This document shows positions 6,526 through 48,636 of a stretch of 64,000 bases of DNA, in pieces. Each line of letters opens with the position of its first letter. Position 1 is the first letter of the stretch. The stretch is from positions 62,001 through 126,000 of the forward strand of contig JAGFNW010000013.1 in NCBI GenBank assembly GCA_017592665.1, given 5' to 3'. Below the pieces are notes generated by a model. The model searched no databases, was not told where the DNA came from, and saw nothing but the letters and a program-made list of their open reading frames with translations. This stretch comes from Streptosporangiaceae bacterium NEAU-GS5. GTDB lineage: Bacteria; Actinomycetota; Actinomycetes; Streptosporangiales; Streptosporangiaceae. Made by a program: the position numbers and the translations under genes.

Positions 6526-6540
6526 GATCTCTCCTCAGAT

Positions 6541-10656: not shown

Positions 10657-10676
10657 GCCGTACAGACGCCGTACAG
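10657..10676. promoter_or_regulatory. Tandem GCCGTACAG direct repeats in SEFIR / NB-ARC-WD40 intergenic region
   Basis: Two copies of GCCGTACAG (10657-10665 and 10668-10676), 11 bp apart and so on the same DNA face. They lie just upstream of the GTG of the NB-ARC/WD40 gene. A facing GTACGGCG occurs nearer the SEFIR start. This is a candidate binding site for the helix-turn-helix domain of either STAND protein. Confidence 0.35.
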
Positions 10677-10685
10677 CGGGCCGCC

Positions 10686-18222: not shown

Positions 18223-21200
18223 CTAGGGAAGACCCCAGGCCGCGCCGGGCTGGCTGATCGCGACCGGCGCGATGATCAGGGCGGGAGCCGCACCGGCGGG
18301 GTGGACGAGGACCTCGCGGTCCACGGGTAGGTCGATCTCGATCACCCCTCCGCCCATATCGCGCCACGGCGCTGCTGTGCCGTCATCGAGCGTCACGGTG
18401 AGCGGCGCGGCCTGGTCCTGGGTCACGTCGAGGCGGTCGAGGTTGGGGCCGCCGGCCGCGGTCGACGAGGTCGCGGTGATCGTGTTCGCCCCGGCCGCGA
18501 GCGTGTCGGTGAACGACAGGGTCTGCCAGTTCTCCCAGGCACCGGTCGCCGGGAAGATCAGCGTGCCCGCGTTGGCGCCGTTGACCTGGATCGCCATCTC
18601 GCGGGCCGCGGTCGTGCCGTTCGCGAAGCGGAAGGTGAACGTGGCCCGGCCGGCGCTCGCGGCGTTCACGGTGAAGCGGAGGGAGCTGCCGGCGACGTTG
18701 TCGAGGTTGACGTAGGCGGCGCCGGTGTAGCCGGAGTGGAGCGTCTCCAGGACGCCCTGGGAGATGACCCCGTCCTCCGCCTGGTACGTGGTCCCCGTGG
18801 CCGGTTGCGGCTCGACCTCGAGAGAGTCGAGGTTGGGCGCGCCGGCCGCGTTGGCCGAGGTCGCACGGACCGTGTTGGAGCCTGCGCTCAGGTTCGCCGT
18901 GACCGTCACGGTCTGCCAGGTCTCCCACGCGCCCGTGGCCGGGAAGTCGGGCGTGGCGACCGTGGTGCCGTTGACCGCGATGGCGGTCGGGCGGGCGGCC
19001 GTGGTGCCGTTGGCGTACCGGAAGGTGAGCAGCGCGGGCCCGGCCGCGGCGGCGGTCACCGTGAACTGCAGGTAGCTGCCGGAGATGTTGTCGAGGTTGA
19101 CGTAGCCACTGCCGGTGTAGCCGGCGTGCGTGGTCTCCAGGACACCCTGGGAGATCGTGGCGTTCTCGGCCTGGTAGACCGTGGACTGGGGGACGGGCGT
19201 CATGCCGTGCTTGAGGCGGCACACCTCGCCCGCCAGGCTGCGCAGCCGCACCCATCGGGTGGCGCCTCCGGAGCGTACGGCGCTGACCAGGAACGCGCCC
19301 TGGACGCGGAAGTCGTGCAGCGTGACGTCCCGCCAGCCGGACGGAACGGCCGGGAAGACCCGGATGACCCCGCCCCAGCTCTGGCAGAGCATGTCGTGGA
19401 TCGACTGGGAGGCCGACAGCGGCGTTTCGATCACCGGCCCGGCCTCGGTGTAGTGCGTGTTGGCCCGGCAGGGATAGGCGGTCGCGGGGTCGAAGAACTT
19501 CATCAGGTAGGACAGGGCGGTGTCGCCGCGGCCCATCATGGCGTACATGGAGGACGCGCCCGTGTAGCTGTAGCCGCGCTGCGCGCCGGTCAGCGCGTGC
19601 CACCGGACGATCGACTTCTCGATCAGCGCCCGGTTCTCCGCCTGGTCCCAGTTCACCAGATAGAGGGGATAAATCATCAGAAGGTGGGAGTAGTGGCGAT
19701 GCGACTGCGCGTACGGCGTGCTGCCACCGATCATGAAGCCGTTGGCGTCCGTGGGATAGGCGACGAGCGTGCTCAGCACCTGCTTCCACTTGCTCTCCAG
19801 CGGATCGACGACGCCGAGCCGCTGCGACGCCTCGAGCAGGGTCTGGCAGCCCCACCGGATGAGCGCCAGGTCGTAGTTGGTGTCCTGGGGCGGCACCACC
19901 GGATACTCGGGCGAGAGGGTCGAGGGCAGGTGCAGCTTGCCGTCGCCGCCGGTCGCCAGGAAGTGGAGATAGTAGTTGATCGCCCGGCGCAGGATGGGGA
20001 ACAGCGTGTCGCGCAGCAGCCCCTCGTCCATCGTGTGCCGCCACGACAGCCACACGTTGTGCAGCGCCCAGGTGAGATCCCCGGTCTCGGCGCCTGATCC
20101 GGGCGTGCCGACACTCCGCGTCGCGAACATGTCCGAGCTCCGGCCGACGCCGGAGGAGTCCGTGCGGTAGGCGCTGCCCACGTTGTTGGTCAGCTGCTGC
20201 CGGTTGGCGTCGATCGTGCTGGTCACCGAGTCGAGCTCCAGGTGATTGGAGCCGTGGATGAGCCAGTATTCGAGCTGCACGTTCAGGTTCCACCACACGC
20301 CCGGCCACGGCGTGGGCTCCAGCCACGGCCCGGTCGTCGCCATGATCGGCGCGCCGGCGCGCGTGGCCGAGGCCACCTTGTACAGCTGGATCCAGTGGAA
20401 GCTCTGCAGCCGCTGGTCGGGGATCGACACGAAGCTCTTGCGGTAGAAGGCGTGCCACCAGTCCCGGTGCGTGGCCAGATAGTTCGCGTACGGCACGGCG
20501 CTCGCGTTCTGGGCGCGGGTGAGCGCGACGCTGTCGGCGTTGGTCGCGGGGAAGGTGTGCGCCACCGTCACGTACAGCAGCCGCTGCCCGGCCGACGGGC
20601 CGGCGATCTCCCGGTAGGCGGTGGCCGTCTCCCCGCCGCCGGTCAATGGCTGGATCACCTGCTTGACGTCGCCGGTGGTCTTGGTGGTCCAGGTCGGATT
20701 CTCGGTGTATCCCGATGGCGGATCCTCCGACGCGGACCGTGGAGTGATCGCCTTCTCCGGCACGAAGGCCCATCTGACCTGCTCGGATCCGCTCGGAGTG
20801 ACCGAGACGACCATGACCTGGTCGTGAATGGAGGCCTGGACGGTCAGCGTGCCGGAGGAGGTGGTGATCGTCCCGGTGAGCTCGGCGTTCCACAGGTCGA
20901 GCCGCCAGTTGACGGCCGAGATGGTCCCGGCGGGGGAGAGCGTGAGGTGGCCGACCGGCAGCCGGGCCGTGCCCCAGCCGCTCCCGAACTGCGGCCGGTG
21001 ATCCTGCACCTCGCCGTGCTGAACGGTGAAGCGGATCTGGTTCTGGCCCGGCTCCTTGTAGACCATCGAGCCGAGCCGACCGTCGCCGAGGAACGGGCCT
21101 TCGTGCCAGACGGCCGGCATCCGCTTCCAGACCAGATCCTGGCCGCGCAGGAAATCGGCCCACTGCTGATCCGTGCTCATCCGGTTGTCGATCGCCACCG

Positions 21201-21342
21201 GAGCCGCCAGAGCGTGCGCGGCCCGTTCGATTCGCCGATCGGGCAGGGGGAGCGCCGCATCCGCAGGTCGCGCGGGCAGCGCCGCCATGGCCGCGCCCCC
21301 TACGGCCAGCCCCAGCACCGTCCGCCGCTTGACAGGCTCCAT
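18223..21342 (-). CDS. Exported GH95-like glycoside hydrolase with two CBM35-like modules
   Basis: 1,039 residues. The N-terminus KRRTVLGLAVGGAAMAAL is a Tat-type signal. The catalytic region (about 45-715) follows the GH95 plan: an N-terminal beta-domain (WHEGPFLGDGRLGSMVY), then an (alpha/alpha)6 barrel with PWPGVWWNLNVQLEYW, SHRHYSHLLMIYPL and the late QSWGGVIRVFPAVPSGW. GH95 enzymes cleave alpha-L-fucosides or alpha-L-galactosides. Two CBM35-like modules occupy about residues 716-977. The last 60 residues (TVTLDDGTAAPWRDMGGG) look like the continuation of the GH95 C-terminal beta-domain, so the modules appear to be inserted into it. Expression is probably controlled by the dyad at 21378. 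Confidence 0.85.
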   Translation of the reverse strand: MEPVKRRTVLGLAVGGAAMAALPARPADAALPLPDRRIERAAHALAAPVAIDNRMSTDQQWADFLRGQDLVWKRMPAVWHEGPFLGDGRLGSMVYKEPGQNQIRFTVQHGEVQDHRPQFGSGWGTARLPVGHLTLSPAGTISAVNWRLDLWNAELTGTITTSSGTLTVQASIHDQVMVVSVTPSGSEQVRWAFVPEKAITPRSASEDPPSGYTENPTWTTKTTGDVKQVIQPLTGGGETATAYREIAGPSAGQRLLYVTVAHTFPATNADSVALTRAQNASAVPYANYLATHRDWWHAFYRKSFVSIPDQRLQSFHWIQLYKVASATRAGAPIMATTGPWLEPTPWPGVWWNLNVQLEYWLIHGSNHLELDSVTSTIDANRQQLTNNVGSAYRTDSSGVGRSSDMFATRSVGTPGSGAETGDLTWALHNVWLSWRHTMDEGLLRDTLFPILRRAINYYLHFLATGGDGKLHLPSTLSPEYPVVPPQDTNYDLALIRWGCQTLLEASQRLGVVDPLESKWKQVLSTLVAYPTDANGFMIGGSTPYAQSHRHYSHLLMIYPLYLVNWDQAENRALIEKSIVRWHALTGAQRGYSYTGASSMYAMMGRGDTALSYLMKFFDPATAYPCRANTHYTEAGPVIETPLSASQSIHDMLCQSWGGVIRVFPAVPSGWRDVTLHDFRVQGAFLVSAVRSGGATRWVRLRSLAGEVCRLKHGMTPVPQSTVYQAENATISQGVLETTHAGYTGSGYVNLDNISGSYLQFTVTAAAAGPALLTFRYANGTTAARPTAIAVNGTTVATPDFPATGAWETWQTVTVTANLSAGSNTVRATSANAAGAPNLDSLEVEPQPATGTTYQAEDGVISQGVLETLHSGYTGAAYVNLDNVAGSSLRFTVNAASAGRATFTFRFANGTTAAREMAIQVNGANAGTLIFPATGAWENWQTLSFTDTLAAGANTITATSSTAAGGPNLDRLDVTQDQAAPLTVTLDDGTAAPWRDMGGGVIEIDLPVDREVLVHPAGAAPALIIAPVAISQPGAAWGLP

Positions 21343-29533: not shown

Positions 29534-31807
<2,274 letters not shown>

Positions 31808-35429: not shown

Positions 35430-36038
35430 ATGATCGAGCTGCTCGGGATGGCCGTGACGCTGACGGCGGCAATCGCGCTCGTGGCGATGGCGCTGCTGCT
35501 GATCTCCGTGCTGACGCTGGCGGTCCTCGCCGGGATGGCCGTGTCGACCGAACGCGAGCCTCCGCCCGGGCCCACGAATTCACCGCGGTCCGGGCTGTCG
35601 GCCCGCCTGCTGGGAATCTCACGGGGCGCGTCGGAGGAGAGGCCGGAGGGGATGCGGGAGCAGGTGGGTTGGGCTCCCGCACCCCCGGCTCAGCGGCCGT
35701 CTTCCGGCCGGCGCCCGGCCGTAGGTCAAGGACCTGGGCCAGGTCAGCCCCCTGGTCAGGCCCCGGGTCAGGCCCCGGGCCAGCCGCCCGGGCAAGCTCC
35801 AGGTCAGCCGCCGGGACAGGGCCCGAGTCAGCCGCCCGGCCAGCCGCCGGGACAGGCTCCGGGCCAGCCTCCCGGCCAGCCTCCCGGCCAGCCATCCGGT
35901 CAGCGGCCCCCTACGGGCGCGCGGCCGGGCCCGGATCGGAGCCGAGGCCCGGCGTCCACGCCCGGGCGGACCGGCGAGCGGACGCCCGGGCGGGCCGCCG
36001 GCCCGGCGACCCGCGCCGGCCAGCGGCCCAGTCGCTGA
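35430..36038 (+). CDS. Single-pass membrane protein with Pro-Gly-Gln repeat tail
   Basis: 202 residues, no recognised family. Residues 1-40 are one strongly hydrophobic segment (LTAAIALVAMALLLISVLTL). The remainder is low complexity: residues 95-160 consist of about fifteen PPGQ/APGQ units, then an Arg/Pro/Gly/Thr-rich end. Ribosome site GAGGTGGG precedes the ATG. Third-position GC and the repeat phase support this frame over the antisense one, which would be Arg/Ala-rich. Possibly a cell-envelope anchor with an extended extracytoplasmic or cytosolic tail. It follows the Ppx gene at about 110 bp. Confidence 0.65.
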   Translation: MIELLGMAVTLTAAIALVAMALLLISVLTLAVLAGMAVSTEREPPPGPTNSPRSGLSARLLGISRGASEERPEGMREQVGWAPAPPAQRPSSGRRPAVGQGPGPGQPPGQAPGQAPGQPPGQAPGQPPGQGPSQPPGQPPGQAPGQPPGQPPGQPSGQRPPTGARPGPDRSRGPASTPGRTGERTPGRAAGPATRAGQRPSR

Positions 36039-36052: not shown

Positions 36053-37645
36053 TCAGCCGTGGCCGGTCCTGATCATCTGCTCGCTCATGAGCAGGAACGC
36101 GCCGAGGCCGTGGAAGTCGTTCGTGGCCCTCGGGCGGTCGTAGTAGAAGCTCGTCGAGTCGTCGGCGTTGGTGCCGATGCAGATGTCGGTCAGGTTGGTC
36201 CGGCCGTCGGAGCCCAGCGAGATCTTCTGCAGCACGCCCTGGTAGCCCTTGTCGGCGTACTGCTGGTAGCTCGCGTCGACGTAGCCGCGCTCGACCGCGC
36301 GTGAGATCACCGTGGTGTACATGGCCGAGCAGGACGTCTCCAGCCAGTTGCCGGACGCGCCCGCCTTGTCGACCAGCTGCCACCAGCGGCCGCTCGCCGG
36401 GTCCTGCCAGCGCACGTAGCCGTCGATGAGCTTGCGCAGGATGTCGAGCAGCGCGGCCCGCCTGGCGTGGCCGGCCGGCAGCAGTTCGAGGATGTCGGTC
36501 ATCGCCATGCCGTACCAGCCTTCGGCGCGGCACCAGGTGAGGCCGTTGGTGTTGCCGAACTCGGGGTGCACCCAGCTCGCGGTCAGGCCGCCGGGCTCGT
36601 CGTAGGCGTGCCAGAGCAGGCCGGCGGAGTTGCCGTCGGTCCGCTGCAGGTGCTTGCCGTAGACCTGCATCTGCTCGGAGGCGTTGTCGTTGCCCCACGT
36701 GGCGTCGTTGAAGGTCTGGCCGTAGCGGATGACGAAGGGGTCGGCCATGAACACGCCGTCACCCCACAGCTGGCCCTGGCGCGAGTCGGAGGTGGAGTGC
36801 CACCAGCCGCGGTCGGAGGTCCGGGGGTAGGTGTTCAGCCGCGTGCGGATCTTCTGCGCCGCGGTGCGCCACTTGGCCTGCCCCGTCTCCTTGTACATGA
36901 TCACCAGGAGGTTGCCGGCCTCCATGCTGTCGAGGTTGCCGAAGCTCTGGCTGATGTTTCCGCTGGAGTCCACGAACCGGTTGGCCCAGTCCTTGATGTA
37001 CTGCAGGTAGGCGGGGTTCCCGGTGCGCTGGTAGACCTGGTACATGCCCTGCAGGAACAGCGCGACGGGGTAGCTCCAGCCGCCGATCGAGCTCGGCGTG
37101 AAGCGCTGCATGGTCGAGTCGACGACCTTCACCGACCAGTCGGTGGGCGGGGGAGTGGTGCCGCCGTCGGAGACCGTCAGCGAGTCGAGGTTGGGGCCGC
37201 CGTTGGCGGTGTTGGCGGTCGCGCGGATCGTGTTCGCGCCCGCGGCGAGGGTCACCGAGAGGGACTGGTCGGTCCAGGTGTCCCAGTTGCCCGTGCCGCT
37301 GAAGGAGAGGTTGGAGCTGACCGCCGTGCCGTTCACCGCGATCGTCATCGGGCGATTGACGGTCGTGCCGTTGGCGTAGCGGAAGCTCAGCGTGGCCGCG
37401 CCCGCGGCCGCCGCGGTGACCGAGAACTCCACGTACGACCCGGTCACGTTGGTGTAGTCGACGAACCCGGCGCCGGTGTAGCCGTTGTGGTTGCTGAAGA
37501 CTCCCGCCTGCGACAGCGTCGCGTCCTCGGCCTGATAGACGGTGGTGGCCGCCCCGGCGGGAAGGCTGGGTAATCCGGTCAGGGCGATCACGCCGACCGC
37601 GGCGGCGGTGATGATCCGCCGCAGTCTTCGGAAGTGGGGGGTCAC
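36053..37645 (-). CDS. Secreted GH105 unsaturated glycuronyl hydrolase with CBM35-like module
   Basis: 530 residues, GTG start with AGGAGG eight bases upstream. Signal peptide ending near LPAGAA. Residues 36-160 form a CBM35-like module (VYQAEDATLSQAGVFSNH, then NWDTWTDQSLSVTLAAGANT). The GH105 (alpha/alpha)6 domain shows GQLWGDGVFMADPF, ASWVHPEFGNTNGLTWCRAE and GWYGMAMTDILELL. GH105 enzymes remove the unsaturated uronic acid left by pectate or rhamnogalacturonan lyases. It is divergent from the PQQ-dehydrogenase operon across a 429-bp regulatory region, so joint induction by pectic material is likely. Confidence 0.92.
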   Translation of the reverse strand: MTPHFRRLRRIITAAAVGVIALTGLPSLPAGAATTVYQAEDATLSQAGVFSNHNGYTGAGFVDYTNVTGSYVEFSVTAAAAGAATLSFRYANGTTVNRPMTIAVNGTAVSSNLSFSGTGNWDTWTDQSLSVTLAAGANTIRATANTANGGPNLDSLTVSDGGTTPPPTDWSVKVVDSTMQRFTPSSIGGWSYPVALFLQGMYQVYQRTGNPAYLQYIKDWANRFVDSSGNISQSFGNLDSMEAGNLLVIMYKETGQAKWRTAAQKIRTRLNTYPRTSDRGWWHSTSDSRQGQLWGDGVFMADPFVIRYGQTFNDATWGNDNASEQMQVYGKHLQRTDGNSAGLLWHAYDEPGGLTASWVHPEFGNTNGLTWCRAEGWYGMAMTDILELLPAGHARRAALLDILRKLIDGYVRWQDPASGRWWQLVDKAGASGNWLETSCSAMYTTVISRAVERGYVDASYQQYADKGYQGVLQKISLGSDGRTNLTDICIGTNADDSTSFYYDRPRATNDFHGLGAFLLMSEQMIRTGHG

Positions 37646-37866
37646 CGGACAGTCCTCCTATGTATGAGCGGGGCTCGGGGTGGGGCGGGTGAGGGATTGT
37701 GTGTCACCGGCACGACAGAGGTCGCATCGGCCTTCTGATCGAGATGTGAGGTCACGCTAAGAGATCCAACCTTTCGCGTCCACCTTCACCCTTACACATA
37801 CACCACACGCGCACTTCTAATCCATGTGTCGGAACAAGAATCTGTACAACGGAACACGATCTCGAC

Positions 37867-37880
37867 CGCAACCGTTTGCG
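37867..37880. promoter_or_regulatory. CGCAA-CCGT-TTGCG dyad
   Basis: A 5+5 perfect inverted repeat around a CCGT core, resembling LacI-family operators. It sits in the middle of the divergent CAZyme promoter region. Confidence 0.4.
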
Positions 37881-37912
37881 CTGGACGAATCGGGCAAAAA
37901 CCACATTTGGGC

Positions 37913-37928
37913 ATGTTACCGGTTACAT
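37913..37928. promoter_or_regulatory. ATGTTACCGGTTACAT dyad (LacI-like operator)
   Basis: A 16-bp dyad centred on ACCGGT, symmetric at 14 of 16 positions. The central CG flanked by AT-rich arms is characteristic of LacI-family sites upstream of sugar-utilisation genes. Confidence 0.5.
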
Positions 37929-38013
37929 CCGATGTACGCGGCCCGCTTCTTTGTATCGTTTCATTTGTTAATGACCTTGACAAGAAGCTTCGAGATGTGG
38001 GACCAAAGGGGAC

Positions 38014-38028
38014 AAAGGTCCAACCTTT
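38014..38028. promoter_or_regulatory. AAAGGT-CCA-ACCTTT inverted repeat
   Basis: A perfect 6+6 inverted repeat, 47-61 bp upstream of the PQQ-dehydrogenase start. It overlaps the second copy of the 13-bp direct repeat. Confidence 0.45.
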
Positions 38029-38074
38029 CGCCTGAGCGTGTCTGCCTGTCGCGGCAGATCGTCAAGGAGGATCC

Positions 38075-40540
38075 ATGAGATCTCGAAGGCCCGGGGCACG
38101 GGCGGCCGCAATGGCCGTCGCCCTGGTGGGAGGACTTGTCGCCGCGTTGCTCCACGCGCTTCCCGCGCACGCGGCCACCCGCTACGAGGCGGAGGACGCC
38201 ACGATCTCCCAAGGGGGAGTGGCGAGCAATCACGCGAACTTCAGCGGGACCGGCTTCGTCGACGGTACAAACGTTTCCGGTAGTTTTCTGGAGTGGACCT
38301 TCACCGCGCCGAGCGCGGGCACGGCCACCCTCGTCATCCGCTACTCCAACGGCACGACCACCACACGGACGTCCGACGTGTCGCTCAACGGCACGGTGAT
38401 CTCCGCGAACCGGTCGTTCGCCGCCACCACCAACTGGGACACCTGGGCCAACTCGACCATCACGGCCACCGTCCCGGCCGGCACCAACACCCTGCGCGTC
38501 ACGTCCACCAGCGCCAACGGCAACGCCAACCTCGATTACCTGGACGTCACGGTCGCCGCACCGTCCACGGTCTTCCAGGCCGAGGACGCGACCATCTCGC
38601 AGGGCACGGTCGCCAGCAACCACACCGGGTTCACCGGCACCGGGTTCGTCGACTACACCAACATCACCGGGTCGTACGTGCAGTTCACCGTCCCGGCGAC
38701 CACCGCCGGCGCGGCCGCCCTCACCTTCCGGTACGCCAACGGCACCACGGTCGCCCGGCCGATGACGATCACGGTCAACGGGACCGCGGTCAACGCCGAC
38801 CTGGTCTTCGCCGGCACCGGAAACTGGGACACCTGGGCCGACCTGTCGGTCAACGCCACACTCAACGCCGGCAACAACACGGTCAGGGCCACGGCCACCA
38901 CGGAGAACGGCGGCCCCAACCTCGACCGGCTCTCGGTGGGCCCGCCCGCCGACGGGGAACGGCCGACCACCCCCGGCAAGCCGGCCTGCAGCGACATCGG
39001 CGAGAACGGGATGACCCTCTCCTGGGCCGCCTCGACCGACAACGTCGGCGTCGCCGCGTACGACATCTACAACTTCGGCAACAAGGTCACCAGCGTCGGC
39101 AACGTGACGACCGCCCCGATCACCGGCCTGACCCCGAACACCACCTACAGCTGGTCGGTGTTCGCCCGGGACGCGACCGGCAACGTCTCGCCGCCGAGCG
39201 AGGTCACCGAGTGCACCACGGCCCGCAGCTCCGACACCCAGAAGCCGACGGCCCCCGGCGGCCTGGCCGCGAGCGGCGTCACCGCCAACAGCGCCCACCT
39301 CACCTGGACGGCCTCGTCGGACAACATCGGCGTGCGCCGCTACGAGATCCGCAGCGGCGACAACGTCTACGGCGGCGTCGACGGCAACCCGCCGGCGACC
39401 TCCCTCGACCTGACCGGGCTGGCCTGCGACACGCCGTATGCGCTGGTGGCGGTGGCGCTCGACGCCGCGACCAACGTGTCGGACCCGAGCAACACGGTGA
39501 GTTTCCGCACCCAGTCGTGCGAGACCGACGGCGGCGTGCCGTCGAGCATCACCCAGATCTCCACCGGCTGGACCATCCCCTGGGGCATGGCCTGGCTGCC
39601 CGACGGCCAGACGGCCCTGGTCACCGAGCGGGACGACAAGGTGGCGTCCAACCAGTTCCGCGTCTACAAGGTGACCCTGGCCGGCGCCAGGACCCTGGTC
39701 GGCACGGTGCCGAACGCCGACACGACCGGCACCGACAGCGGCGAGGGCGGCCTGATGGGCGCGGCCGTGGACCCGAGCTGGACCACCAACCACTTCGTCT
39801 ACTTCTTCCACACGTCCCCGACGGACAACCGGATCGTCCGGATGACCTATGACGGGACCTCGCTCAGCAGCACCTCGACCCCCATCGTCACCGGCATCAG
39901 GCGGAGCCTGTTCCACAACGGCGGGCGGCTGGCCTTCGGCCCGGACGGCTACCTCTACGCGACGACCGGCGACTCGCAGCAGAGCAACCTGGCCCAGGAC
40001 CGCAACTCGCTCAACGGCAAGATCCTCCGGATGACGACGACGGGCCAGCCCGCACCGGGCAACCCGTTCGGCACGCTCGTCTACAGCTACGGCCACCGCA
40101 ACCCGCAGGGCATCGCCTGGGACTCCCAGGGCCGGCTCTGGGAGGCCGAGTTCGGCAACAGCCAGGTCGACGAGCTCAACCTGATCAAGCCGGGGCTGAA
40201 CTACGGATGGCCGACCTGTGAGGGCACCTGCAGCGTCTCCGGCATGACCAACCCGAAGAAGACCTGGCCGGTGGCCCAGGCCTCGCCGAGCGCCATCGCG
40301 ATCGTCCGCAACGTCGTCTACATGGCGGCGCTGAAGGGCGAGCGCCTCTGGCGGATCCCCATCGGAAGCGGTGAAAGCGTGGGCACCGCGACCTCCTACT
40401 ACGTCGGGACCTACGGCCGCCTGCGGACCGTGATCAAGGTACCCGGCCAGAACCAGCTGTGGCTCAGCACCACCAACTGCGACAACAACGGTGACGCTGC
40501 CAACGGCTCCGACCGGATCTTCCGGGTGACGATCACCTGA
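38075..40540 (+). CDS. Secreted PQQ-type sugar dehydrogenase with two CBM35-like and two FnIII domains
   Basis: 821 residues; the ATG follows AAGGAGG. After the signal peptide (ending near LPAHAA) come CBM35-like modules at about residues 28-155 and 158-284, then two FnIII domains (PGKPACSDIGENGMTLSWAA; PGGLAASGVTANSAHLTWTA). From about 480 on is a six-bladed glucose/sorbosone dehydrogenase propeller: IPWGMAWLPDGQTALVTERD, FHNGGRLAFGPDGYLYATTG, YGHRNPQGIAWDSQGRLWEA and GLNYGWPTCEG. Such proteins oxidise sugars with PQQ and may feed electrons to partner oxidases (family AA12 is a related case). The sugar specificity is unknown. First gene of a four-gene CAZyme operon. Confidence 0.88.
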   Translation: MRSRRPGARAAAMAVALVGGLVAALLHALPAHAATRYEAEDATISQGGVASNHANFSGTGFVDGTNVSGSFLEWTFTAPSAGTATLVIRYSNGTTTTRTSDVSLNGTVISANRSFAATTNWDTWANSTITATVPAGTNTLRVTSTSANGNANLDYLDVTVAAPSTVFQAEDATISQGTVASNHTGFTGTGFVDYTNITGSYVQFTVPATTAGAAALTFRYANGTTVARPMTITVNGTAVNADLVFAGTGNWDTWADLSVNATLNAGNNTVRATATTENGGPNLDRLSVGPPADGERPTTPGKPACSDIGENGMTLSWAASTDNVGVAAYDIYNFGNKVTSVGNVTTAPITGLTPNTTYSWSVFARDATGNVSPPSEVTECTTARSSDTQKPTAPGGLAASGVTANSAHLTWTASSDNIGVRRYEIRSGDNVYGGVDGNPPATSLDLTGLACDTPYALVAVALDAATNVSDPSNTVSFRTQSCETDGGVPSSITQISTGWTIPWGMAWLPDGQTALVTERDDKVASNQFRVYKVTLAGARTLVGTVPNADTTGTDSGEGGLMGAAVDPSWTTNHFVYFFHTSPTDNRIVRMTYDGTSLSSTSTPIVTGIRRSLFHNGGRLAFGPDGYLYATTGDSQQSNLAQDRNSLNGKILRMTTTGQPAPGNPFGTLVYSYGHRNPQGIAWDSQGRLWEAEFGNSQVDELNLIKPGLNYGWPTCEGTCSVSGMTNPKKTWPVAQASPSAIAIVRNVVYMAALKGERLWRIPIGSGESVGTATSYYVGTYGRLRTVIKVPGQNQLWLSTTNCDNNGDAANGSDRIFRVTIT

Positions 40541-40558
40541 CCGGCCGCGGCGCGTCCT

Positions 40559-40583
40559 CCCTCCGCGGTTTCCCGGCGGAGGG
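40559..40583 (+). terminator. Intergenic hairpin after the PQQ-dehydrogenase gene
   Basis: CCCTCCGC, nine-base loop, GCGGAGGG, 18-42 bp past the stop codon and before the next gene. It lacks a U-tract, so it may be a weak or attenuating terminator, or may protect the transcript, rather than a full stop within the operon. Confidence 0.45.
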
Positions 40584-40624
40584 GGGACGTCTCCCGGTCC
40601 TCCCTCTGGAAGGAACGACCCCAC

Positions 40625-42235
40625 GTGCACAGACGCCTACTGATCATCGCGGCGGCGGTCACCGCGCTCGCCGCCTTCTACGTCCCCTATTCGGGCTCGA
40701 CCGCGCAGGCCGCCCCCGGCTGGGAGCTGAAGTGGTTCCCCGACGCGGCCACCGCGGGCCTCGGCGCCTTCGAGACCATCGAGGACGACCGGGCCGACTC
40801 GCACAAGGCCGGCCAGCCGCACATCTTCGTCGAGGGCGACCACTTCCGCTGGAACATGCACACGGTCGACCGCGACACGATGACCGACCGGCAGCGCCAG
40901 GAGGTCACCGGCATGCGGCAGCCGGCCGGAGGGCCGTTCCTGGAGATGAACAACGGCGAGCGGTGGCGGATCACGTACTCGATGTTCATTCCGAGCACGC
41001 TGAAGGGCACCACCACCTTCACCCACATCATGCAGTTCAAGCAGCCGGGCACCGGGACGCTGCCGATCATGACGATCTCGCTGGACCGTGACGGCAGCAA
41101 CCAGCAGGTCATCCAGATGAAGGACTTCAACGACGACCTCGTCGTCGGCGAGACCCCGCTCGTGCCCCTGCAGAACGCCTGGATCGACGTCGAGGTCGAG
41201 GTCACCATCGGCAACGGCACAGCGGGCGCGCTCCGGTTCGTGATCAAGAAGGACGGGGCGACCGTCCTCGACAAGACCAAGACCGGCATCGACACCTTCC
41301 TCGAGGACCGCGTCCGCCCCAAGTGGGGCATCTACCGCTCGCTCGGCGACACCTCCGGCTCCCTGCAGGACACCTACCTGCTGGCCAGGAACTACCGGGC
41401 CTATCAGTGGACCAACAACGCGAGCCCCAGTCCGTCGCCGAGCCCGTCGCCCAGCCCGAACCCGGGGCCCCGGTACGAGGCCGAGAACGCCACCATCTCG
41501 CAGGGCGTCTTCGAGAACACCCACACCGGCTTCAGCGGCACGGGCTACGTCAACGGTGACAACGTCGCCGGCAGCTACACCCAGTGGGCCGCGTCCGCCG
41601 GCACGGCCGGGCAGTACGACATCGCCATCCGCTACAGCAACGGCACCACGACCGATCGCCCGGCCAATGTCATCGTCAACGGGACGACCGTGGCGTCCGC
41701 CGTGTCCTTCCCCAGCACCGGCACCTGGGACGTGTGGGCCACCAAGACCGTGACCGCGCCGCTCAACTCCGGCTCCAACACCATCCGGATCGCCTCGACC
41801 ACGGCCAACGGCAACCCCAACATCGACTACATCGAGGTCACGCCCGCCGTCGCGCCGGTCGACTACCAGGCCGAGAACGGCACGATCTCGCAGGGCACGG
41901 TCGACTCCGACCACACGGGCTTCACCGGCACGGGCTTCGTGAACTTCACCAACGTCTCGGGAAGCTACCTGCAGCAGACGGTGACCTCGGCCACCGCGAG
42001 GACCGCCACCCTCACCATCCGGTACGCCAACGGCACCGCGGCCAACCGGCCCATGGACATCACGGTCAACGGCACGCTGGTCGCCGACAACCGGGCGTTC
42101 AACGCCACCACGAACTGGGACACCTGGACGACCGTCTCCCTCCCGGTCGCCCTCAACGCCGGATCCAACACCATCCGGCTCACCTCGGCGTCCGCGGACG
42201 GCGGTCCCAACATCGACAAGCTCACGATCGGCTAG
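40625..42235 (+). CDS. Secreted polysaccharide lyase-like protein with two CBM35-like modules
   Basis: 536 residues, GTG start with GGAAGG upstream. Signal peptide ending near STAQAA. Residues 30-262 resemble a heparin-lyase/PL-type jelly roll (Polysacc_lyase): ERWRITYSMFIPSTLKG, THIMQFKQPGTG, NAWIDVEVEVTIGNG and KWGIYRS. A Pro-Ser linker (about 268-280) leads to two CBM35-like modules (285-410 and 415-536). The position between a sugar dehydrogenase and a GH28 suggests cleavage of a pectic or other uronic-acid polymer. The family assignment is by fold-level resemblance only. Confidence 0.75.
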   Translation: MHRRLLIIAAAVTALAAFYVPYSGSTAQAAPGWELKWFPDAATAGLGAFETIEDDRADSHKAGQPHIFVEGDHFRWNMHTVDRDTMTDRQRQEVTGMRQPAGGPFLEMNNGERWRITYSMFIPSTLKGTTTFTHIMQFKQPGTGTLPIMTISLDRDGSNQQVIQMKDFNDDLVVGETPLVPLQNAWIDVEVEVTIGNGTAGALRFVIKKDGATVLDKTKTGIDTFLEDRVRPKWGIYRSLGDTSGSLQDTYLLARNYRAYQWTNNASPSPSPSPSPSPNPGPRYEAENATISQGVFENTHTGFSGTGYVNGDNVAGSYTQWAASAGTAGQYDIAIRYSNGTTTDRPANVIVNGTTVASAVSFPSTGTWDVWATKTVTAPLNSGSNTIRIASTTANGNPNIDYIEVTPAVAPVDYQAENGTISQGTVDSDHTGFTGTGFVNFTNVSGSYLQQTVTSATARTATLTIRYANGTAANRPMDITVNGTLVADNRAFNATTNWDTWTTVSLPVALNAGSNTIRLTSASADGGPNIDKLTIG

Positions 42236-42238
42236 GCG

Positions 42239-44017
42239 ATGTCACATCACACCTCGCGCCGCCAGTTCCTGCGCGCCGCCGCGCTCACCGCCGGCGTCGC
42301 CGCCCTTCCCGTCCCCCTGATGACGGGAAGGGCCGCCGCGGCCTCTCCCTGGGACGACGTCCCGGCCATCCTCGCGCGGATCATGCCGCCGACCTTCCCC
42401 GACCGCACGTTCGACATCACCGCGTACGGTGCCGTCGGCAACAACTCGGCCGACTGCACGACGGCGTTCAAGAACGCCATCGCCGCCTGCAGCGGGGCGG
42501 GCGGCGGGACCGTGCTGGTTCCTTCCGGGACCTTCCGCACCGGGCAGATCCACCTGCTGGACAACGTCCGGCTGCAGGTGAACGGCACCATCCGGTTCCG
42601 CACAGACCACGGGTCCTATCAGCCGAACGTGTTCACCCGCTACGAGGGCATCGAGTGCTACAACTTCTCGCCCTTCATCTACGCCAACGGCAAAAGCAAC
42701 ATCGCCATCAGCGGCACGGGCACGATCGACGGCAACGCGCCCGCCGGCGACTGGTCGTCGTTCGGCAGCAGCGGCACCGACCGGACGAACCTGAAGAACT
42801 ACGGCGCCAACAACACGCCGGTGACCCAGCGGCAGTTCGGCGACGGGCACAAGCTGCGCCCCAACATGATCGGCCTCTACAACTGCACGAACATCCTGGT
42901 CGAGGGGGTCACCCTGACCAACCCGGCCATGTGGTCGCTGCACCCCGTCTACAGCACCAACATCACCGTGCGCGGCGTGACGTTCCGCACCACCAACTCC
43001 CAGGGCGACGGCGTCGACCCCGACTCCTGCACGGACGTGCACATCCACGACTGCCGGTTCGACACCAACGACGACTGCATCCCGATCAAGTCGGGCCGCG
43101 ACCAGGACGGCCGCCGGGTCAACCTGCCCTGCCAGAACATCGTGATCGAGAACTGCAAGTTCAGCGGCCGGTGGGGCGGCGTCACCATCGGCAGCGAGGC
43201 CTCGGGGGGCGTGCGCAACGTGTACGCGCAGGACTGCCAGGTCAATCCGACCGATTTCCCGGGCCGCTTCCCGTGCAAGTACGCCCTCTACGTGAAGACC
43301 AGCTTCAACCGGGGCGGCTTCATCGAGAACGTGCACCTGCGCCGGATCACCGGCCGGGCGCTCGAACGGGCCGCCCTCTACATCACGCTCAACTACGAGA
43401 CGAGCGGCTCGCTGCCGCCGAGGGTGCAGAACTTCACGCTGGACCAGATCACGATCACCAGCGGCGACCAGGCCTGGAACCTCGACGGCCGCTCGGCCGA
43501 CCACATAAAGAACGTGACGATCTCCAACAGCACGTTCACGAACATCGCCACGGCCGCGCCGACCGTGAACTTCGTCGACAACCTCGTGCTCGCGGGCGTC
43601 TCCATCAACGGCAAGGACGTGTCCAACAGCCAGCCGCCGCCCGCCAATCGCTACGAGGCGGAGAACGCGGTGTTCTCTCAGGCGATCTTCGAGAACAGCC
43701 ATAGCGGCTTCAGCGGCACCGGATACGTCAACACCGACAACGTCGCCGGGTCGTACGTGGAGTTCACGGTGAACTCGGCCGGCGGCCCGCAGACCCTGAA
43801 GATCCGGTACGCCAACGGGACCAGCGCCAACCGGCCGATGGCCATCGCGGTCAACGGCGCGACCGTCGCCACCCGCGACTACAACGCGACCGCGAACTGG
43901 GACACCTGGGCGACCGACACCCTCACCGTGACCACGAACCCCGGCGCCAACACGATCCGGCTCACCGGCACGACGGCGAACGGATGCCCCAACGTCGACT
44001 ACATCGAAATCAGTTAG
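42239..44017 (+). CDS. Tat-exported GH28 polygalacturonase-like hydrolase with CBM35-like module
   Basis: 592 residues. A Tat signal (SRRQFLRAAALTAGVAAL) opens the protein. The parallel beta-helix GH28 domain (about 50-455) starts FDITAYGAVGNNSADCTTAF and carries the acidic catalytic segments QGDGVDPDSC and TNDDCIPIKSGRD, then RWGGVTIGSEASGGV and YVKTSFNRGG in place of the classic RIK. A Gly sits where the conserved GHG His is expected, as in several rhamnogalacturonan-type GH28 enzymes. The C-terminal CBM35-like module spans about 465-592. It starts three bases after the previous stop, so it is co-translated. Confidence 0.9.
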   Translation: MSHHTSRRQFLRAAALTAGVAALPVPLMTGRAAAASPWDDVPAILARIMPPTFPDRTFDITAYGAVGNNSADCTTAFKNAIAACSGAGGGTVLVPSGTFRTGQIHLLDNVRLQVNGTIRFRTDHGSYQPNVFTRYEGIECYNFSPFIYANGKSNIAISGTGTIDGNAPAGDWSSFGSSGTDRTNLKNYGANNTPVTQRQFGDGHKLRPNMIGLYNCTNILVEGVTLTNPAMWSLHPVYSTNITVRGVTFRTTNSQGDGVDPDSCTDVHIHDCRFDTNDDCIPIKSGRDQDGRRVNLPCQNIVIENCKFSGRWGGVTIGSEASGGVRNVYAQDCQVNPTDFPGRFPCKYALYVKTSFNRGGFIENVHLRRITGRALERAALYITLNYETSGSLPPRVQNFTLDQITITSGDQAWNLDGRSADHIKNVTISNSTFTNIATAAPTVNFVDNLVLAGVSINGKDVSNSQPPPANRYEAENAVFSQAIFENSHSGFSGTGYVNTDNVAGSYVEFTVNSAGGPQTLKIRYANGTSANRPMAIAVNGATVATRDYNATANWDTWATDTLTVTTNPGANTIRLTGTTANGCPNVDYIEIS

Positions 44018-44030
44018 GAGCAGTGCACCC

Positions 44031-46574
44031 ATGCGCACCACACGGAGACGGATCGCGGCCGCGTTATCGGCGGTGGCCGTGATCCTCGCCATGACACCGG
44101 CCGGCCCGGCGAGGGCCGACCTGCAGGCGCCGCGCCAGGCGTTCCTGCGCAGCTCCATCGGCGGCCTGTTCCTGCACTGGGGCGAGCGCACCAACCCGCA
44201 GCACACCTCGTGCACGACGTGGGAGAACGACGTCACCAACGGCGGCTGGGACCCGAACTACTGGGTCAACGAGGCCAAGAAGCTGCACCTGCAGTATCTC
44301 GTGCTCGCCACCTTCCACAGCCGGCTCGGCTACGCCCGGCCGTACCCCTCGAAGATCCCCGGCTCGTGCGCGACCAAGCGGGACTTCCTCGGCGAGCTGA
44401 TCGACGCCGCCGACGCGCAGGGCCTGAAGGTCATCAACTACATGACCGACGACCCGCAGTGGCACAACGAGGGCCTCAGCTCCGGCGACTGGCTGAACTC
44501 CAGCGCCTTCTCCTCCTACGTGGGCCACTCGGTCGACCTGACCACCAGGGACGGCTTCGGCGAGTTCAGCTACCTGCAGTTCTTCGAGCAGATGCAGCGC
44601 TATCCCAAGCTCGCCGGCTTCTGGATCGACAACGACAACGCGTACTGGGAAGACCACGACCTGTACCAGCAGATCTACCAGCAGCGCCCCGACATGACGA
44701 TCAGCAACAACAACGAAGACACCGCGATCATGGACATGATCAGCAATGAGCAGAAGACGGGGATGACGCCGAGCTACGACTACCCGCAGGCGGTCTACAC
44801 GGCGGCGCCGCGGCTCATCGAGGCCGACTTCAAGCTCCCCTCCAGCGGCGCCTGGTGGTACGACGGCTCCAACTCAAGCGTCGACAACAAGCTCACGCTC
44901 GGCCGGCTGATCACCAACGCGGGATCCTCGGTCAAGGCGCTCATGGCCGAGACGGCGCAGGTCAACGGCAAATTCCCGTCCAACCAGGCGAACTTCAACA
45001 ACTTCGCCAACACCTACCTCGAGGCCATCTGGCCGTCCCTGTACGGCACCGAGGGCGGCGGCTACATGTACGGCGGCCTCAAGCCCGGCTTCTGGAACAA
45101 CGGCGCGCACGGCGTCACCACGATCAGCAAGACCGACCCCGACCTGCAGTACATCCACGTGCTCACGGCCCCGTCCACGAGCTCGCTGACCCTGCGCGAC
45201 AACGGCTACAAGATCGCCGCGGTGACCAACCTCCGCACGGGCGCCCCCGTCTCCTGGTCGCAGGCGAACGGCTCGCTCACGATCACCGGCATCTCCAGCT
45301 GGGACACCTACGACACGGTCTTCAAGGTGATCACCGACGGCCGCGAGGGGATCTACACCGGCGTCACCGCCACCGCGACCTCCTCCACCAGCGGGCACGC
45401 CGCCTCGGCCGCGGTCGACGGCAACTACCTGACCTACTGGGACAGCAACGCGGCCGAGCCGGCCTCGCTCTCCTTCGACCTCGGCTCGGTCAAGCCGATC
45501 AAGTACATCGCGTTCAACCAGCGCGAGGATTCGACCGTCTTCCCGTCCAGCGGCTCGGCCCGCATCGCCGGCTACCAGATATACGTCAGCAGCAACGGCA
45601 CGAGCTGGGGGAGCGCCATCAAGTCGGGCACCGTCCCGAACGCGCGCGGCGTCCAGTTCGTCGACCTGCCCGCCGGCACCTCCTCCCGATATGTCCGGCT
45701 GACCAAGACGGGCCACGCGGGCGTCTCCCGCTGGCGGGTCGACGAGGCCTGGGTCGGCGGCGCGTACGCCAACGCCGGCACCGTCACCCCGCCCGGCAAC
45801 CGGCACGAGGCCGAGGACGCCACGATCTCCCAGGGCATCTTCGAGAACAGCCACACCGGGTTCAGCGGCACCGGCTACGTGAACGGCGACAACGTCGCCG
45901 GGTCCTACCTGCAGTTCTCCGTGCCCTCCGACACGGCCGGCACCGCCACCGTGAAGCTCCGCTATGCCAACGGCACCACCACCAACCGGCCGAGCGCCAT
46001 CGCGGTCAACGGGACCACCGTGTACGCCTCCCGCGACTACAACGCCACCGCCAACTGGGACACCTGGGCGACCGACACCTTCACCGTGCCGTTCACGGCC
46101 GGGACCAACACCATCCGCGCCACGGCCACCACGGCCGGCGGCAACCCGAACATCGACTACATCGACGTCGACGTGACCCCGGGCGGCGGCACCTCGACCG
46201 ACTACCAGGCCGAGGACGCGACGATCTCGCAGGGGACCGCGGCCACCAACCACACGGGATTCACCGGCACCGGATTCGTCGACTACACCAACATCGCCGG
46301 ATCGTACGTGGAGTTCACGGTGAACGCCGCCGCGGCCGGCAACGCCTCGCTGACCATCAGGTACGCCAACGGGACGGCCGTGGACCGCCCCATGGACGTG
46401 ACCGTCAACGGGACCACGGTCGCCGCGGCGCGCTCGTTCCCGCCGACCACCGACTGGGACACCTGGACGACCAGCACGCTCACGGTGCCGCTGGCCGCCG
46501 GATCCAACACGATCCGGATGACCGCCACGACCGCCAACGGCGGCCCCAACCTGGACAGAATCACCATTAGTTAA
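44031..46574 (+). CDS. Secreted GH29-like glycosidase with F5/8C and two CBM35-like modules
   Basis: 847 residues. Signal peptide ending near AGPARA. The catalytic region (30-440) resembles alpha-L-fucosidases of GH29: SIGGLFLHWGERTNPQHTS, KKLHLQYLVLATFHSRLGY, and FWIDNDNAYWED at the nucleophile position (Asp in WIDND); it is diverged from typical members. An F5/8-type-C (CBM32-like) domain follows (about 445-575, SGHAASAAVDGNYLTYWDS), then two CBM35-like modules (585-710 and 722-847). Last gene of the operon, ended by a perfect hairpin. It probably removes alpha-linked side groups from pectin or xyloglucan. Confidence 0.78.
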   Translation: MRTTRRRIAAALSAVAVILAMTPAGPARADLQAPRQAFLRSSIGGLFLHWGERTNPQHTSCTTWENDVTNGGWDPNYWVNEAKKLHLQYLVLATFHSRLGYARPYPSKIPGSCATKRDFLGELIDAADAQGLKVINYMTDDPQWHNEGLSSGDWLNSSAFSSYVGHSVDLTTRDGFGEFSYLQFFEQMQRYPKLAGFWIDNDNAYWEDHDLYQQIYQQRPDMTISNNNEDTAIMDMISNEQKTGMTPSYDYPQAVYTAAPRLIEADFKLPSSGAWWYDGSNSSVDNKLTLGRLITNAGSSVKALMAETAQVNGKFPSNQANFNNFANTYLEAIWPSLYGTEGGGYMYGGLKPGFWNNGAHGVTTISKTDPDLQYIHVLTAPSTSSLTLRDNGYKIAAVTNLRTGAPVSWSQANGSLTITGISSWDTYDTVFKVITDGREGIYTGVTATATSSTSGHAASAAVDGNYLTYWDSNAAEPASLSFDLGSVKPIKYIAFNQREDSTVFPSSGSARIAGYQIYVSSNGTSWGSAIKSGTVPNARGVQFVDLPAGTSSRYVRLTKTGHAGVSRWRVDEAWVGGAYANAGTVTPPGNRHEAEDATISQGIFENSHTGFSGTGYVNGDNVAGSYLQFSVPSDTAGTATVKLRYANGTTTNRPSAIAVNGTTVYASRDYNATANWDTWATDTFTVPFTAGTNTIRATATTAGGNPNIDYIDVDVTPGGGTSTDYQAEDATISQGTAATNHTGFTGTGFVDYTNIAGSYVEFTVNAAAAGNASLTIRYANGTAVDRPMDVTVNGTTVAAARSFPPTTDWDTWTTSTLTVPLAAGSNTIRMTATTANGGPNLDRITIS

Positions 46575-46580: not shown

Positions 46581-46622
46581 AATGTCCCCATCAGGCTTGA
46601 ACCTGGGCCTGATGGGGACATT
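46581..46622 (+). terminator. Operon terminator with perfect 16-bp stem
   Basis: AATGTCCCCATCAGGC (46581-46596), a 10-base loop, then GCCTGATGGGGACATT (46607-46622). It begins 7 bp past the GH29-like stop. It is unlikely to be coding, so the upstream ATG at 46582 is rejected as the start of the MFS gene. Confidence 0.92.
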
Positions 46623-46629
46623 GCGCTAC

Positions 46630-48636
46630 ATGGGGGCCCCAGCTGACCAGATGGCCCGCGACCTGGGCGATCGTCGCGGCGTGGGCGCGGTGATCGGGGC
46701 GCTGATGCTCGGTCTGCTGCTGGCCGCCCTCGACCAGACGATCGTGTCGACCGCGCTGCCGACCATCGTCGGCGAGTTCGGCGGGCTGGCCCACCTGTCC
46801 TGGGTGGTCACCGCGTATCTGCTGGCCAGCACGGTCTCCACGCCGCTGTGGGGCAAGCTGGGCGACCAATATGGCCGCAAAGGGCTCTTCCTCACCTCGA
46901 TCGTGATCTTCTTGATCGGTTCGGCGCTGTGCGGGATCAGCCAGGGCATGTCCCAGCTGATCATGTACCGGGCGCTTCAGGGGCTGGGCGGCGGCGGGCT
47001 CATGGTGCTGTCCCAGGCCATCGTCGGCGACGTGGTCCCGGCCCGCGAACGCGGCCGCTACCAGGGCTTCTTCGGCGGCACCTTCGCCTTCGCCAGCGTG
47101 GTCGGGCCGCTGGTCGGCGGGCTGTTCGTCGACCACCTGAGCTGGCGCTGGGTGTTCTACGTCAACCTCCCGATCGGCGTGGTCGCGATGTTCGTCATCG
47201 CCGCCACGCTCCCCGGGCGCGACCAGCGCACCCACCACAAGATCGACTGGCTGGGCACGGCGCTGCTCAGTGCCGCGGTCGTGTGCGTCGTGCTGGTCAC
47301 GTCGTGGGGCGGCGTCCAGTACGCCTGGAGCTCACCGGTGATCATCGGCCTGGCGGTGGCGGCCGCCGTGCTGCTGCTGGCGTGGGTCGTCGCGGAACGG
47401 CACGCGGCCGAGCCGGTCATCCCGCTCCGGCTGTTCCGGCTCCGGGTCTACACCGTGACGTCGGCGATCGGGTTCATCGTGGGCTTCGCCATGTTCGGGG
47501 CCCTGGCCTACCTGCCGCTGTTCCTGCAGGTGGTGCATGGCGTGTCGGCCACGCGCTCGGGTCTTTATCTGCTGCCCATGATGGCCGGGATGCTGACCAC
47601 ATCGATCCTCGCCGGGCGGGCCATCAGCAGGACCGGGCACTACCGGAAATATCCCATCGCGGGCACGGGCGTCACGACGGTCGCCATGCTGCTGCTGTCC
47701 CGCCTGTCGCCGCAGACCTCGACCCCCGTCATGGGGGTCTATTTCCTGCTGCTCGGCGTCGGCCTCGGCCTGGTCATGCAGGTCCTGGTGATCGCCGTGC
47801 AGAACGTGGTCGACTACGCCGACCTCGGCGTGGCCACGTCGTCGGCCACGTTCTTCCGCTCGATCGGCGGCTCGTTCGGCGTCTCGATCTTCGGGTCGAT
47901 CTTCGCGTCCCAGCTGGTGGTCAACATCGCCTCGATCCGGCTGCCGGGCGGGTTCAACCCGGCCGCCCTGCAGGGCAACCCGCATCTGGTGGCCGGGCTG
48001 CCCGGCCCCACCGCCGCCCGGGTCATCGAAGCGTACTCGGACTCGATCACGGTGATCTTCGTGTACGCGGCCGCGGTCGCCTTCGTGGGGTTCGTGCTCA
48101 GCTGGTTCCTCCGCGAGGTGCCGCTCAAGACCAGCGTGGGGGCCGTGGCCACCGACCTCGGCGAGGGCTACGGCGCCCCGTGCGCGCGGACGTCGGTGGA
48201 GGAGGTCGAGCGGGAGCTCACCCTGCTCATGCGCCGCGACCCCGGGGCCCGGCACATGTACGAGCAGCTGGCCCTGCGCGCCGGATTCGACTTCTCGGCG
48301 GGGACGACGTGGGCGCTGGCCCGGGTGGCGCGGGAGGGCCGGATCGACCGGTGGAGGCTGGCCGAGCGGGCCGGGATCACGGTCGAGGAGGGCATGCCGT
48401 ACACACAGCCGCTCGTCGACCGGCATCTGGTGGAGCGGACCACCACCGACCTGATCATCCTTCCGGCCGGCCAATATGTATACGAGGAGCTGGTCAAGGT
48501 CAGGCGGCAGGCCCTGGCCCACCACCTGAGCTGCTGGAACCCTGAGGACAACGTCGAACTGACCGCGCTGCTGAACCGCCTCGCCGAAGAGACGGTCGGC
48601 GACGAGGGCGATGCGGCCGTCATGCGCGGCAGCTGA
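46630..48636 (+). CDS. DHA2-type MFS drug exporter with C-terminal winged-helix-like extension
   Basis: About 668 residues; starts at 46630 or 46651 are both possible because the terminator occupies the region just upstream. Fourteen transmembrane segments are expected: LLLAALDQTIVSTALPTIVG (motif D1-like), GKLGDQYGRKGLF (motif A), YRALQGLGGGGLM and SVVGPLVGGLFVDHLSWRW (motif C). These are proton antiporters for drugs or metabolites. After the last helix (residue about 495) lies a cytoplasmic tail of about 170 residues with a winged-helix pattern (ARVAREGRIDRWRLAERAGI, then LVDRHLVERTTTDLIILPAG) similar to MarR proteins. Such a fusion is unusual. Confidence 0.88.
   Translation: MGAPADQMARDLGDRRGVGAVIGALMLGLLLAALDQTIVSTALPTIVGEFGGLAHLSWVVTAYLLASTVSTPLWGKLGDQYGRKGLFLTSIVIFLIGSALCGISQGMSQLIMYRALQGLGGGGLMVLSQAIVGDVVPARERGRYQGFFGGTFAFASVVGPLVGGLFVDHLSWRWVFYVNLPIGVVAMFVIAATLPGRDQRTHHKIDWLGTALLSAAVVCVVLVTSWGGVQYAWSSPVIIGLAVAAAVLLLAWVVAERHAAEPVIPLRLFRLRVYTVTSAIGFIVGFAMFGALAYLPLFLQVVHGVSATRSGLYLLPMMAGMLTTSILAGRAISRTGHYRKYPIAGTGVTTVAMLLLSRLSPQTSTPVMGVYFLLLGVGLGLVMQVLVIAVQNVVDYADLGVATSSATFFRSIGGSFGVSIFGSIFASQLVVNIASIRLPGGFNPAALQGNPHLVAGLPGPTAARVIEAYSDSITVIFVYAAAVAFVGFVLSWFLREVPLKTSVGAVATDLGEGYGAPCARTSVEEVERELTLLMRRDPGARHMYEQLALRAGFDFSAGTTWALARVAREGRIDRWRLAERAGITVEEGMPYTQPLVDRHLVERTTTDLIILPAGQYVYEELVKVRRQALAHHLSCWNPEDNVELTALLNRLAEETVGDEGDAAVMRGS

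Follow-up and report, generated by a model that had tools for sequence, protein, structure and literature searches.

A CBM35-bearing PQQ-type sugar dehydrogenase as the predicted oxidative arm of an actinobacterial uronide-polysaccharide locus

Introduction

Soluble aldose sugar dehydrogenases (ASDs) that use pyrroloquinoline quinone (PQQ) include 3DAS of S. coelicolor (PMC6881789), 3A9G/3A9H of P. aerophilum, and sGDH of Acinetobacter. Here, we describe a predicted secreted member of this family encoded in a 64,000-nucleotide stretch of Streptosporangiaceae bacterium NEAU-GS5 (contig JAGFNW010000013.1, positions 62,001 to 126,000; hereafter the window), where it lies among putative polysaccharide-degrading enzymes at window positions 36053-46574. 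The protein shares its family and its PQQ-site residues with the soluble ASDs, but adds two CBM35 modules, two FN3 domains, and a setting within a polysaccharide locus. We propose that the locus serves the extracellular degradation of a uronide polysaccharide and has an oxidative arm of its own, provided by a Ca-PQQ dehydrogenase, and assign this explanation, taken as a whole, a probability of roughly 0.6.

Alike in idea are the fungal AA12 enzymes CcPDH and TrAA12, which are secreted PQQ sugar dehydrogenases, CcPDH with a carbohydrate-binding module. The AA12 family is fungal and binds PQQ through ligands of its own, such as His560 and Arg273 of CcPDH, which also has an AA8 cytochrome (PMC6881789); unlike CcPDH, none of the locus proteins of the window had a cytochrome domain matched by Pfam. 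AA12 enzymes oxidise L-fucose (PMC5960967, PMC6881810); this oxidation takes place at C1, LPMOs (lytic polysaccharide monooxygenases) can be driven, and CcPDH reduces LPMOs (PMC5960967). On the polysaccharide side, pectinolytic and uronide clusters share GH28 and GH105 with the locus of the window. In contrast to them, its five genes are without a classical pectate lyase or esterase and a PQQ dehydrogenase is added, and relatives of the locus also hold chitinase, chitosanase and pqq genes.

Results

Organization of the locus

A preliminary description of this DNA had placed a PQQ dehydrogenase with two CBM35 modules and two FnIII domains at the head of an operon of PL-like, GH28, and GH29-like genes, divergent from a GH105 gene, and open reading frame (ORF) coordinates and Pfam matches confirm this arrangement. 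The ORF and Pfam scan of 36053-46574 revealed five predicted-secreted enzymes, every one of them with CBM35. Four are encoded on the + strand, spanning 38075-46574 in the order GSDH, PL, GH28, and GH29-like, with intergenic gaps of 84, 3, and 13 bp. The first is the putative secreted PQQ-type sugar dehydrogenase (38075..40540, +), with the architecture CBM35-CBM35-FN3-FN3-GSDH and a GSDH Pfam match (PF07995, cut-off 25 bits) of 205.4 bits over residues 501-801. It is followed by a polysaccharide lyase (PF14099) with two CBM35 modules (40625..42235, +; Polysacc_lyase 31.9 bits, cut-off 29.9), an exo-polygalacturonosidase-like GH28-CBM35 protein with a Tat leader (42239..44017, +; Glyco_hydro_28 82 bits), and a protein with a GH29-like alpha-L-fucosidase domain, an F5/8 type C domain, and two CBM35 modules (44031..46574, +; Alpha_L_fucos 32.6 bits, cut-off 25.2). 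Divergent from this operon is the gene of a secreted CBM35-GH105 unsaturated uronyl hydrolase of the GH88/105 fold (36053..37645, -; Glyco_hydro_88 270 bits, CBM_35 35.6). Sec- or Tat-like leaders were judged by eye to be present on 5/5 locus proteins, the GH28 leader having a TAT_signal match of 20.1 bits, which is under the cut-off of 22.7. Of the five family labels, PL and GH29 are the least secure, and none of the five locus proteins matched an NCBIfam model over cut-off.

The PQQ site of the dehydrogenase

The proposed identity as a PQQ sugar dehydrogenase is supported by the PF07995 match and by the PQQ-site residues. The closest solved chain to the GSDH domain is 3das (310.7 bits). In addition, H614, R675/N676, K754, and R782/R784 align with the PQQ-site positions of 8re0 (sGDH), and all six residues were checked and are present; the H, R/N, and R/R positions also align with 3a9g. 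Scores are low towards the C-terminus of the alignment with sGDH. We take the sGDH residues at these positions to be H144 (the catalytic His), R228/N229 (the pair at the quinone), K377, and R406/R408, both in numbering and in role. Residue roles and numbering for sGDH and ASDs come in part from PMC6881789 and PMC6881810. Among 87 homologues, the His is conserved in 86, the GHRN motif in 85, and GR-x-R in 85. Family and residues together support the prediction that the window protein is a PQQ-type sugar dehydrogenase. A loss of the PQQ site, with TNCDNNG replacing SNRDGRG, was considered and rejected; the ligand Arg residues are those of the GRLR pair, which is present.

Conservation of the pairing in relatives

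Relatives of the GSDH domain were collected with one genome per species; 298 were confirmed, and the best 80 loci were retained, so the counts favour close relatives. Neighbouring families were counted within about 10 kb of GSDH using BLAST bit thresholds set by the analyst, with GH18x standing for chitinase-like GH18 and GH8 being chitosanase-like. The most identical GSDH relative (94%) is from Planotetraspora. PL is present in 22 of the 80 loci, GH105 in 19, GH18x in 19, GH8 in 14, GH28x in 12, GH29-like in 11, GH27 in 11, GH28 in 4, and GH95 in 4; grouped, GH105 or PL is present in 25, GH8 or GH18x in 23, and pqq genes in 17. Adding the window locus and a further seven GSDH loci from its genome to the 80 relatives gave a set of 88 loci, for which a FastTree phylogeny was built from 87 GSDH stretches of at least 250 amino acids, one per relative locus (L085 was too short and was counted as outside the clade). 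The window falls in a clade of 40 members with a support of 0.915; one or more partner enzymes or pqq genes lie near 38/40 of these, compared to 7/48 of the loci outside it. Near one Kribbella GSDH (L058:11068-12600), three GH105 pieces directly follow the GSDH gene; these fell under the threshold, were not counted, and possibly represent a broken gene.

The lyase alignment, the GSDH domain, and PqqC also served as queries against a second sample, made up of 200 genomes from the order. To judge from coordinates and identities, four of these genomes (G169, G203, G215, and G225) match genomes of the first set (L078, L027, L021, and L022), so the two samples are not independent. The lyase passes an E value of 1e-20 in 16/200 genomes and exceeds 400 bits in 11/200. 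In 8/11 genomes (G000, which is the window genome, G099, G169, G179, G215, G225, G232, and G234), the strong lyase has within 3.3 kb a GSDH that shares 62% identity or more with that of the window; four of these eight are the window genome or were already among the 80 loci, and the other four are apparently new. The regions of G179 and G169 hold GH105, GSDH, GH28, PL, GH28, GH28x, GH29-like, and GH27, and in G232, G234, and G099 PL adjoins GSDH and the other families of the set were not recognised; a second, distant PL is present in G099. Other regions have the arrangement GSDH-GH18x-GH8 (G203 and G223), GSDH-GH18x (G247 and G208), or GSDH with GH8 (G233). These comparisons support a conserved tie between GSDH and predicted uronide enzymes in relatives. 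The combination had been called not standard for pectin systems, and that statement stands in part: none of the papers listed by literature searches dealt with the combination, and yet it is recurrent in this clade.

Linkage to PQQ synthesis

In several Streptomyces relatives, genes for cofactor synthesis adjoin the locus. NCBIfam matches over cut-off (given in brackets) were obtained in L036 for PqqC at 279.6 bits (240), PqqD at 73.4 (46), and PqqE at 482.2 (381), and in L046 for PqqB at 332.9 (245) and PqqE at 471.1 (381); a PqqA-like peptide of L036 scored under its cut-off (16 vs 20). In L046, the stretch from 4769 to 10978 carries pqqB-C-D-E, GH105, PL, and GSDH, all oriented the same way. 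pqqE was found in 16 of the 80 loci, all of them from Streptomyces, and GSDH lies downstream on the same strand in 16/16. Between pqqE and GSDH, these 16 loci contain GH105 in 8, PL in 7, GH18x alone in 2, and nothing recognised in 6. Judged by title and the start of the abstract, none of the papers listed by the searches described a linkage of pqq and lyase genes. We regard the pqq linkage, as read from these gene rows, as the strongest sign that GSDH of this clade would use PQQ and forms a single programme with the uronide enzymes. Because the pairing is kept by relatives, some with pqq genes in the same gene row, the GSDH and uronide enzymes are probably a working unit rather than a chance association. 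In Streptomyces L105, L114, and L119, pqqA is directly preceded by the end of a second, different GSDH (48-59% to the query).

Proposed function and points that weigh against it

At the polymer, the lyase would cut the uronic-acid backbone, GH105 would take off the unsaturated uronyl ends, and GH28 and the fucosidase-type enzymes would trim the remainder, with the CBM35 modules keeping all enzymes on the same polymer. Uronides, fucose, and galactose would be released by the lyase and hydrolases, and the CBM35-anchored Ca-PQQ GSDH would oxidise a released sugar at C1, by the sGDH mechanism, to a lactone or aldonic acid. Candidates for the sugar oxidised are L-fucose, a hexuronic acid, or the reducing end of an oligouronide. 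A good first guess would be fucose, given that it is oxidised by AA12 enzymes, that CcPDH then reduces LPMOs, and that the set includes fucosidase-type enzymes. The electrons would then pass to some extracellular acceptor. The earlier suggestion that they may feed a secreted oxidative enzyme is not supported for the operon itself, as neither an LPMO nor an oxidase was recognised among the five locus genes; two genes for AA10 LPMOs are present elsewhere in the window genome, on other contigs.

Several observations weigh against this explanation. The activity of GSDH is a prediction, and nothing in the locus was recognised as an electron acceptor. At the Lys position of the PQQ site (K754 in the window), many of the 87 homologues have Arg and at least 3 have Thr; therefore, Lys is not a family-wide ligand. 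Half of the retained relatives (40/80 loci) are without GH105, PL, GH8, GH18x, and pqq genes, 33 of them at no more than 61% identity to the window GSDH and 7 closer, and three of the 11 strong-lyase genomes (G064, G172, and G196) are without a close GSDH and have PL alone in the fetched regions. Moreover, the loci share descent, hence the counts are not independent. Finally, no PqqC match was found in the window genome (99.43% complete), when 29/50 genomes scored over cut-off in the same search.

The last observation bears on an alternative explanation, in which GSDH is a propeller without redox function, either carbohydrate-binding or a relic, that is carried along with the CBM35 set. The lack of a PqqC match is in keeping with such a protein, as is the disparity across the order, where GSDH is present at E<=1e-60 in 185/200 genomes and pqqC over cut-off in 17/200 (23 at E<=0.001). 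However, the PQQ-site residues are present in the window protein and pqq genes adjoin close relatives, and we consider a non-redox propeller improbable. In a dehydrogenase dependent on PQQ, the same data have a different consequence. The window genome has eight GSDH genes and neither a pqqC match nor a PqqE match above cut-off (best 101.8; the genome was searched for PqqC and PqqE, and not for PqqB and PqqD), and its GSDH would thus need scavenged PQQ. Similarly, most GSDHs of the order would use scavenged PQQ or another cofactor. Uptake of PQQ is known for E. coli (PMC6881810).

The lyase and the GH29-like protein

An alignment of 18 lyase homologues (of 24 full-length stretches) shows that the motifs R64-x-R66-x-E68 and K208-x3-Y212 are invariant (numbering of alignment row 1). 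The predicted model (predicted local distance difference test score, pLDDT, 86.3) matched 2zzj, the endo-beta-1,4-glucuronan lyase of T. reesei (TrGL), best in VIA (Z 19.9, 198 residues, root-mean-square deviation 2.5), followed by heparin lyase I (Z 18.0). In Foldseek, glucuronan lyase ranks level with alginate lyases, and this comparison alone does not separate them. TrGL belongs to what we take to be family PL20; the lyase model has the PL20 fold, a jelly roll that is common to PL7/PL13 and hence not exclusive. Although TrGL is the nearest fold in VIA, it has 11% identity to the locus lyase, and the RxRxE...KxxxY pattern of the latter differs from R51/H53/E55/Q91/Y200 of TrGL; R64-x-R66-x-E68 and Y212 were compared with R51/H53/E55/Q91/Y200/D206 by pattern, without residue-level superposition. 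Another homologue of the lyase, more distant and with a score of 224 bits, is encoded elsewhere in the window genome (G000:C51:211447-212130), and the Planotetraspora-like genome G225 has six lyase copies on contigs C83 and C93, five of them on one contig.

The GH29-like domain, which scored over cut-off in Pfam, has weak PDB matches to AlfC (E 0.0016). Its WIDND motif is invariant in an alignment of 12 sequences, and its predicted model is poor (pLDDT 57.7).

Candidate substrates

The locus had been described as a pectin-type operon, and its GH28 and GH105 do favour galacturonides. Among solved structures, GH28 is closest to 3jur, an exo-poly-alpha-D-galacturonosidase (303.7 bits), followed by 5olp (250.8 bits), which was deposited under the name 'Pectate lyase'; the GH28 match to the NCBIfam BT4155 model, at 278.5 bits, is under the cut-off of 800. 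GH105 is closest to YteR (223 bits), which we presume to have rhamnogalacturonan activity. If the polymer is plant pectin, either homogalacturonan or the side chains of rhamnogalacturonan, GSDH would oxidise pectin-derived sugars, and the presence of GH105, GH28x, and GH28 in 19, 12, and 4 of the 80 relatives is in keeping with this. However, no PL1/PL3/PL9-type lyase, pectin esterase, or rhamnosidase is present among the five genes and ten scanned neighbour proteins, the nearest fold of the lyase is that of a glucuronan lyase, and 11 of the 22 PL loci also have GH18x or GH8. Pectin is unproven, and we regard it as a tentative assignment that may well be wrong.

The same lyase comparison, in which glucuronan lyase scores above the next VIA match, points to the wall of Mucoromycota fungi, with a polyuronide of glucuronic acid (GlcA), fucose, mannose, and galactose on chitosan and chitin. 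Mucorales walls are described as consisting of chitosan and chitin together with polyuronides that contain GlcA, Fuc, Man, and Gal (PMC6433966), and glucuronan lyase together with chitinase has been proposed for use against them (PMC7601620). A fungal wall would also suit the presence of GH27 and GH95 in the clusters of some relatives, the match of the locus CBM35s to the module of the exo-beta-D-glucosaminidase 2vzp, and the GSDH, GH18x, and GH8 genes of a paralogous locus in the window genome (L015). In the relative L028, GH18 is closest to an exochitinase and GH8 to a glucanase entry (342.6 bits), followed by chitosanases (233). In contrast, GH28 and GH105 resemble galacturonide enzymes, GH8 and GH18x are absent from the window cluster itself, the Foldseek ranking leaves alginate lyases level with glucuronan lyase, and solid-state nuclear magnetic resonance found no GlcA signal in the Rhizopus delemar walls studied (PMC11437000). 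We hold the fungal-wall and the galacturonan or pectin explanations to be about equal. A bacterial or algal exopolysaccharide of fucose and uronate would accommodate PL, GH105, GH29-like, GH95, and GH27 too, but would leave GH28 and the chitinase and chitosanase neighbours unexplained, and is the least probable of the three polymers.

Regulation and neighbouring genes

The divergent intergenic region between GH105 and GSDH (37646..38074) contains two copies of TCCAACCTTTCG, at 37765-37776 and 38019-38030, that are the only exact copies in the 9.96 Mb genome, and the second lies within the dyad AAAGGT-CCA-ACCTTT. These are plausible candidate operators of local effect. An 11-base core of TCCAACCTTTCG lies at the start of GSDH, or upstream of it, in 5/80 loci (L021, L022 with two, L059, L061, and L062), which are from Microbispora, Planotetraspora, and three Nonomuraea, and in 0/13 regions fetched from the 200-genome sample (two of which repeat L027 and L078). 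A wider TCCAACCTTTCG regulon was rejected, given that one-mismatch copies are at control level (8+7 vs 13+10) and the core is in 5/80 relatives. For a copy of GCCAACCTTTCGC on contig C43, no carbohydrate gene was recognised by reading the ORFs of L135. Control by DasR is likewise not supported: using what we take to be the dre consensus, sites with up to 2 mismatches number 49 in the 80 loci and 31 in one mononucleotide shuffle, one site (L075) has a single mismatch, and the one match of the window, at 4282, is outside the locus. A promoter scan found none, and terminator matches were at shuffle level.

A GH95 protein with two CBM35 modules is encoded 15 kb away (18223..21342, -; Pfam GH95 89.9 bits) and has 80% identity to a GH95 within the Nonomuraea cluster L061. 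By this similarity, it is likely an additional, probably displaced, member of the enzyme set outside 36053-46574. The MFS gene at 46582-48636 was rejected as a locus member; it is of the EmrB/DHA2 efflux type, and its matches to MFS proteins of relatives are weak (27-32%). Other neighbours are a Malectin-FN3-FN3-GH18 chitinase (29534-31807, -), about 4 kb from the GH105 gene, and an ORF rich in Pro/Gly/Gln repeats of the PPGQAPGQ type (35430-36038, +), convergent with GH105.

Discussion

The GSDH described here may represent a conserved oxidative arm of an actinobacterial uronide locus. A more speculative possibility, and one that we think doubtful, is a dedicated actinobacterial oxidative system for Mucoromycota walls, in which a CBM35-targeted PQQ dehydrogenase would act with a glucuronan-type lyase, fucosidases, chitinase, and chitosanase. 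Streptomyces members would synthesise the cofactor from the same operon, members without pqq genes, that of the window among them, would live on the PQQ of their neighbours, and electrons from fucose or uronate may feed chitin-active LPMOs.

GSDH proteins are widespread in this order of actinobacteria. In a suberin-containing medium, a GSDH protein was one of the two most abundant proteins of the S. scabiei secretome (PMC4567563). The window locus gives one GSDH clade a concrete substrate and cofactor context, and thus the sugar oxidised, the source of PQQ, and the electron acceptor become directly testable.

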